From an uncultured Actinomycetes bacterium (GTDB lineage Bacteria > Actinomycetota > CADDZG01 > WHSQ01): a stretch of 64,000 bases of DNA. The notes beneath the pieces are model-generated. The model saw only the letters and a program-made list of their open reading frames with translations, did not search any database and had not been told where the DNA came from. The position numbers were made by a program, and so were the translations under genes. Within the stretch, counting starts at the first letter, position 1; every line of letters starts with the position of its first letter. The stretch is from the NCBI GenBank assembly GCA_937863385.1, contig CALMBW010000002.1:1-64000 (forward strand). Reading direction: 5' to 3'. Of the stretch, positions 59,747-60,118 are shown one piece after another.

Positions 59747-59774
59747 GAAACGGCCCCCGGACGGAGGCCGTTTC
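59747..59774. terminator. Bidirectional terminator after ligA
   Basis: GAAACGGCC-CC and GG-GGCCGTTTC form a stem of about 12 bp with one mismatch and loop GGAC. It would also end transcripts coming from the minus-strand tiny ORFs. Confidence 0.7.
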
Positions 59775-59784
59775 CGATCTGTAG

Positions 59785-59871
59785 CTATGGTTCGTCCTCC
59801 GCTTTTCTTGCCCGGTGGACCGAACCGGGACGGAAGACGCTGGTGCAACGGTTGGATTCTGCCCAGGTCAT
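59785..59871 (-). CDS. Possible 28-residue peptide
   Basis: ATG at 59871; the product begins MTWAESNRCTSVF and is hydrophilic with a charged end KAEDEP. No ribosome site is obvious, but it lies 40 nt after the tiny ORF at 59912-59983 and before a terminator, so the two may share one short transcript. No family is recognised. Confidence 0.35.
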   Translation of the reverse strand: MTWAESNRCTSVFRPGSVHRARKAEDEP

Positions 59872-59911
59872 AACTTCGAGGTGGTCAGGATCCTTCGGTG
59901 AAGCTAGACCT

Positions 59912-59983
59912 TCAGCAGCCGCTCACCTCGTGAGGTCCGTAAGAACTATCACCCGTCAAAGTGTGGACCACCTCCTTTCTCAC
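59912..59983 (-). CDS. Possible 23-residue Cys-terminal peptide with 16S-tail complementarity
   Basis: The minus strand reads AGAAAGGAGGTGGTCC at about 59980-59965, almost the complement of the bacterial 16S 3' end. A frame through it starts GTG at 59983 and ends in HEVSGC; a TTG at 59959 would give a 15-residue form with the GGAGG upstream. TTATAT at 59995-59990 may be the -10 box. Which start is used is open. Confidence 0.35.
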   Translation of the reverse strand: MRKEVVHTLTGDSSYGPHEVSGC

Positions 59984-60118
59984 GTATCGATATAAGAACA
60001 CACCCGGTGTGCTATCTCGCAGTTTTTCGCGAACACTTTTTGGACTTTCGGGTGAACGCCGCATGGCTGCCCAGGGGTAGTCAAGCGACCGGGTCGCGGG
60101 GCTCGATCTGCCCCCGGC

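Follow-up and report, generated by a model that had tools for sequence, protein, structure and literature searches.

A structured RNA related to Ms_IGR-5 carries a complement of the 16S rRNA tail and a conserved, probably translated mini-ORF in Actinomycetota

Ms_IGR-5, filed in Rfam as an sRNA with its function unassigned (RF02471), was reportedly first found in 2013 in Mycobacterium smegmatis. Excerpts of later papers describe it as expressed as an sRNA in M. smegmatis (PMC10454040) and as a transcript in Streptomyces lividans (PMC8079986) and Streptomyces avermitilis (PMC8780764). Significant ribosome-protected reads on MS_IGR-5 homologues are given for M. abscessus and M. smegmatis in the excerpted text of PMC4974804, and because footprints are also described there on most E. 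coli noncoding RNAs, such reads alone are no proof of translation. No account of a mini-ORF, a pseudoknot, or 16S pairing of Ms_IGR-5 was found in the literature searched other than the original description by Li et al. (2013), and within the excerpts covered, the mini-ORF distinguishes the RNA described here from RF02471 as published.

Two other described systems are relevant. Extended Shine-Dalgarno (SD) sequences control rpsU in Flavobacteriales and occur in Staphylococcus aureus (excerpts of PMC9976891 and PMC13009471). In these excerpts the likeness is that longer-than-usual SD pairing tunes initiation, but those systems are mRNAs of real proteins, whereas the present RNA has no protein gene behind it. 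CC2171 (RF01867), a Caulobacter sRNA, shares a 5' GAAAGGAGGUGAUCCAG and has a consensus GUG right after the SD, but its consensus structure is unlike that found here, and its match in the window (the whole stretch of 64,000 nucleotides that was analyzed) at 59987-59789 has 17.4 bits (E 0.17), far below the cutoff of 75. CC2171 is at most an analogue, possibly an alphaproteobacterial ribosome-loaded RNA that is analogous in another phylum; no paper was found in a search for literature naming both CC2171 and Caulobacter.

The window RNA is a stand-alone structured RNA of ~235 nt, distantly related to Ms_IGR-5, and its predicted extent and outer parts are as follows.

59749 to 59985, minus strand: predicted extent of the stand-alone RNA, which begins with the 5' stem and ends with the terminator, drawn from an RF02471 match (59985-59787) and a match to covariance model R2 (59986-59809, see below); the ends are predictions.
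59989 to 59995, minus strand: possible -10 element TTATATC, from sequence only.
59749 to 59772, both strands: inverted repeat, a terminator common to the RNA and the convergent ligA, read from the sequence.

The RNA is flanked by the convergent ligA on one side and by a divergent short-chain-dehydrogenase-like frame on the other, these product names being read off the translations. The bidirectional terminator proposed in an earlier note on this DNA is borne out as an inverted repeat serving both strands (59772-59749), which separates the RNA from ligA, and terminator-like hairpins with T-runs are present at 42 of 124 loci versus 10 of 121 control stretches in a weak scan. TANNNT lies 22 to 23 nt upstream of GGAGG in 54 of 125 homologues, with every other offset giving at most 2; the window has no TANNNT in this register and only the near form TTATATC. 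Gene neighbors recur within the window's family (on the ligA side) or close kin, and no neighbor conserved beyond close kin was found across families by longest-ORF calling, which is crude. With the same crude calling, a same-strand downstream ORF is present in 23 of the 52 loci for which a downstream ORF was called, and it does not recur beyond close kin.

Compared with RF02471, the window aligns collinearly along the full model (positions 1 to 184 of 184) at 59985-59787, with 26.4 bits and E 3.8e-4. This does not reach the gathering cutoff of 45 bits, so that Rfam at gathering thresholds gives no match anywhere in the window, and because of this score the RNA is called a homologue rather than a curated member. 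Scores of 31.6 to 35.4 bits are obtained for three homologues from the window's family, and G003, also of that family, passes the cutoff with 49.9 bits. Across the phylum, RF02471 at E ≤ 0.01 has matches in 58 of 246 genomes (22 above the cutoff) and in 0 of 14 control genomes; two matches lacking the SD (L060 in G133, and L064, a second match in G002) are false and were dropped before all counts.

Two covariance models of 55 sequences each were built, R1 including the window and its family, and R2 from other families without the window's family, its rows aligned with R1; both contain a helix, P1b, that was later rejected. At E ≤ 0.001, R1 matches 138 of 396 Actinomycetota genomes, including every one of the 16 from the window's family; 136 of the 138 matched genomes carry a single copy. 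At the same threshold there is no match in 258 of the 396, and the RNA is therefore not universal. The unmatched genomes listed include several small ones, and also two genomes of 3.6 to 3.8 Mb from a family of the same class (f2). R2 finds the window with 88.9 bits (E 5e-19 in its genome), the next best match there having 15.1 bits. Since R2 was built without the window's family and still finds the window, common descent with Ms_IGR-5 is well supported despite the missed Rfam cutoff. The two also share, along a full-length alignment, the same order of a 5' AAGGAGGUGGUCC, GAGGUGGCUG, GCUAG, and a hairpin with a GUCC loop, and the window RNA is almost certainly a conserved structured RNA homologous to Ms_IGR-5.

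The 5' half of the RNA contains the two elements that face the ribosome.

59965 to 59980, minus strand: extended SD AGAAAGGAGGTGGTCC, complementary to the 16S 3' end.
59912 to 59959, minus strand: mini-ORF of 15 codons from TTG to TGA, MTGDSSYGPHEVSGC, with an open frame conserved from start to stop in homologues.

The first of these had been recognized as a near-full anti-SD complement, and the observation stands: AGAAAGGAGGTGGTCC at 59980-59965 pairs at 16 of 16 positions, with one G-U, with the end of the genome's own 16S gene, GGCTGGATCACCTCCTTTCTAAGGAG. A whole-genome scan allowing up to 2 mismatches returns three sites, namely the AGAAAGGAGGTGGTCC site, the 16S gene (on the other strand), and one site with 2 mismatches, and there is no further full complement of the 16S end in the 2.77-Mb genome outside the 16S gene. 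Pairing with the 16S tail (RNAduplex) is worth -29.9 kcal/mol at the AGAAAGGAGGTGGTCC site versus -21.3 at the best unrelated site among 22-mers sampled every four bases of the window. The complement is retained at 16 of 16 positions in 117 of 129 homologues and at 15 of 16 in 11 more, the sole exception (L057) being cut at a contig edge. The 16S tails taken from 15 genomes all go on CCTCCTTTCT, and the variants of the AAA run in the alignments are changes of A to G that retain pairing with U. In some lineages, copies of the 16S 3' tail itself (GGATCACCTCC) are found just after the matched region (L053 and L059) or inside the P3 apex (L049), as if to provide an intramolecular rival of the ribosome.

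The mini-ORF corresponds to the frame ending in HEVSGC at 59912 that the earlier note had listed; it is present, and its likely start is the TTG at 59959, 11 nt past GGAGG. The GTG inside the SD was discarded as a start, its frame running into a TAG in L003 to L005. The ORF idea came from a first set of sequences and was tested on 129, made up of 71 homologues outside alignment A2 and 58 of the first set; these are 132 sequences minus three that the anchor script could not parse (L174, L177, and L186), of which L174 fits by eye with an ATT start and L177 is without the 5' part. The homologues are related to one another, so counts over them do not represent independent events. The stop is at the same place in P3 in 129 of 129 (TAG in 96, TGA in 28, and TAA in 5), and the ORF is 10 to 15 codons long to this fixed stop. 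An ATG, GTG, or TTG lies 7 to 13 nt past GGAGG in the frame of the stop in 104 of 129, versus 2 and 8 in the other frames, and does so in 64 of the 71 in the new set alone. When CTG, ATT, ATC, and ATA are also allowed, an in-frame start is present in 128, versus 22 and 21 in the other frames, and the remaining homologue has ACG. None of the 129 has an internal stop between start and stop, whereas the two alternative frames are interrupted in 107 and 65. Eight R1 matches outside the 129 were tested apart and all agree, five with an in-frame ATG, GTG, or TTG and three with ATT or ATC. The mini-ORF is very probably translated, judging from this pattern of conservation.

Start codons in actinobacteria are typically mostly ATG and GTG. 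In the 129 homologues the starts are TTG (62), ATG (33), CTG (11), GTG (9), ATT (6), ATC (5), ATA (2), and ACG (1). This strong skew toward TTG, CTG, and ATH is unusual in combination with a perfect SD and would be consistent with discrimination by initiation factors.

The encoded peptide behaves differently from the frame, which is kept open across the phylum. Differences in the loop codons between same-family pairs number 606, 664, and 617 at codon positions 1, 2, and 3, so there is no position bias and no sign of amino acid selection, and the codon pairs comprise 909 non-synonymous and 136 synonymous ones. In twelve homologues the stretch ahead of the stop is shorter by one base; the frame is open there too, but encodes an unrelated peptide. 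Several families share [LM]SDSS-like N termini, and most have a near-constant E-V. Selection thus seems, from these comparisons, to act on translation rather than on the peptide. Conservation does not extend to the second small frame that had been proposed, the 28-codon MTWAESNRCT frame (59785-59871): the frame is present, but of 15 same-family sequences only that of the window has its ATG, which is missing in 14 of 14 relatives, and the frame was rejected as a real part of the locus.

The conserved fold consists of four stems, P1 to P4, and a pseudoknot, together with an additional element in the P3 apex.

59979 to 59984, minus strand: P1 5' strand CGTGAG, pairing with 59934-59929.
59929 to 59934, minus strand: P1 3' strand CTCACG (covariation).
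59934 to 59938, minus strand: pseudoknot strand GGACC, pairing with the P4 loop GGUCC at 59821-59817 (covariation and an anchored test).
59919 to 59927, minus strand: P2 5' strand GGTGAGCGG, overlapping the ORF (covariation).
59842 to 59851, minus strand: P2 3' strand CCGTTGCACC (covariation).
59907 to 59918, minus strand: P3 5' strand, bearing the stop codon (covariation).
59859 to 59869, minus strand: P3 3' strand GACCTGGGCAG (covariation).
59811 to 59829, minus strand: P4 hairpin, whose loop GGUCC is the second pseudoknot strand.
59878 to 59886, minus strand: internal anti-SD GACCACCTC in the P3 apex, a 9-nt complement that could sequester the SD.

The P1 columns are 98.5% paired, with both sides changing in three of four pairs, and P1 is recovered by RNAalifold on the plain MAFFT alignment A2 (for example, pairs AU 26, GC 15, CG 11, and UA 1). 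When the full structure proposed here is scored on A2, both sides change in 176 cells, versus 55.4 in shuffled alignments and 16 to 33 in slid versions of the structure. On A3, an alignment of 100 of the available loci, P1, P2, P3, and the pseudoknot together have 418 such cells versus 122.9 shuffled and 22 to 109 slid. The pseudoknot alone accounts for 74 versus 21.3 shuffled on A3, and these counts are free of fitting bias because A3 was fitted to P1, P2, P3, and P1b and not to the pseudoknot. Its variable pair, in 95 sequences, is GC in 56, UA in 16, CG in 11, AU in 7, GU in 1, and unpaired in 4. In the anchored test, which is independent, a Watson-Crick pair is present in 103 of 123 homologues (the 129 less six that gave no usable anchor pair), versus a mean of 54.8 and a maximum of 72 in 2,000 shuffles, and in 26 of 28 families a Watson-Crick combination is the most frequent. 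The P4 loop was picked by hairpin score alone in this test, and the count is lowered because some picks are plainly wrong (e.g., L012, L026, and L030).

Two competing helices fare differently. P1b (GGUCC/GGACC), which pairs the GGUCC of the SD with the pseudoknot strand, has zero compensatory change and gives way to the pseudoknot. In the first helix of the Rfam model, which joins the SD to GCUGCC, no pair changes on both sides in 55 sequences, unlike in P1 and the pseudoknot, which do show compensatory change in this RNA family; in these alignments, the missing changes speak against the published helix 1 family-wide and not against homology. Because P1 and the pseudoknot covary and P1b and Rfam helix 1 do not, the conserved fold places the SD and the start codon in an open loop of P1. 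The predicted anatomy is new and comprises a 5' stem supported by covariation, two further stems, and a pseudoknot.

The minimum free energy fold of the window RNA differs from this arrangement, as the SD is closed by GACCACCTC at -90.4, versus -85.5 for the conserved P1 fold when the latter is forced together with P1b (which has no covariation support) and without the pseudoknot. This preference speaks against the reading proposed below. SD complements of at least 8 nt are present in the P3 apex of 10 of 99 homologues, versus 0.55 expected from dinucleotide shuffles. The internal anti-SD looked invariant in four relatives, yet it is confined to some lineages and was set aside as a family-wide feature; as judged from the homologues it is a recurring trait of some lineages, not of the whole family. 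In those lineages, including the window's, it could reclose the SD and so produce an off state.

These features suggest a ribosome-loaded, translation-gated regulatory RNA, a reading to which, taken whole, we assign a probability of roughly 0.5 from sequence comparison. In the comparison, the P1 loop presents the full complement of the 16S tail, followed 7 to 13 nt on by a mostly weak start codon, and the far side of the loop docks onto hairpin P4 by the pseudoknot; the mini-ORF runs from the P1 loop through P1 and P2 into P3, where the stop is fixed. We propose that 30S subunits would load through the 16-bp duplex and that translation of the mini-ORF would open the pseudoknot, P1, P2, and the base of P3, such that ribosome availability or start codon selection would decide the fold of the 3' half, with the peptide as a by-product. 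In the weakest step of this scheme, the freed 3' half may act on other RNAs or on the ribosome. Of the options in the earlier note, a small RNA that binds ribosomes comes nearest; the locus is a conserved structured sRNA homologous to RF02471, and the interpretation given in that note is partly supported. More specifically, and tentatively at somewhat below an even chance, translation itself may be the signal in a phylum-wide, one-per-genome RNA: ribosome passage over 10 to 15 codons would melt a pseudoknotted fold, the resulting state would report initiation capacity (IF3 stringency or 30S supply), the start would be deliberately poor, and the peptide would have no role.

A simpler use of the same elements is titration of ribosomes or 30S subunits, in which a 16-bp hold keeps small subunits off other mRNAs and the mini-ORF and weak start only hold or clear the ribosome. 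The complementarity of 15 to 16 bp in 128 of 129 homologues, the weak starts (TTG 62, CTG 11, ATT/ATC/ATA 13, and ACG 1 of 129), and the ribosome-protected reads in the excerpts of PMC4974804 all agree with titration, but an open frame, a fixed stop, and a pseudoknot are superfluous for a pure decoy, and an RNA encoded by one gene copy would have to be very abundant to hold more than a few ribosomes, making titration unlikely. At the other extreme, the RNA could be an untranslated trans-acting sRNA, with the purine run pairing with other targets and the frame a by-product of RNA motifs. Strong secondary structure, the filing of RF02471 as an sRNA, and the Streptomyces sRNA transcripts (excerpts of PMC8079986 and PMC8780764) are compatible with this, and yet 0 of 129 frames are broken, versus 107 and 65 in the other frames, and in-frame starts number 104 of 129 versus 2 and 8, so that we consider it quite improbable.

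That the product matters, as a functional micropeptide of 10 to 15 residues, is in keeping with the conserved start, frame, and stop and with the recurrent [LM]SDSS-like N termini and the E-V that is near constant in most families. This is nevertheless improbable, as the RNA element GAGGUG itself imposes E-V, third-position changes are not in excess (606, 664, and 617, with 909 non-synonymous versus 136 synonymous), and the 12 shorter homologues read the stretch in another frame, giving a different peptide. The remaining options of the earlier note, a leader peptide without a downstream gene and a short peptide operon, fit poorly, and a leader peptide or attenuator after loss of its downstream gene, or a two-peptide operon, is scarcely credible here: an SD, a short ORF, and a terminator do lie in series, but no downstream gene is conserved over families, the next gene in the window is the convergent ligA, and the second frame is missing in 14 of 14 relatives.

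For the translation-gated reading, the anatomy of P1, a pseudoknot, a 16S-tail complement, a frame without a conserved peptide, and non-AUG starts makes RF02471 a testable ribosome-facing RNA. The RNA is found in relatives of Mycobacterium and Streptomyces, with tractable genetics; families f27 and f21 appear Mycobacterium-like and Streptomyces-like, respectively, judged in part from their RF02471 scores. If the reading is true, the RNA would serve as a naturally occurring sensor of translation initiation and would exemplify an ORF retained for being read, not for its product.
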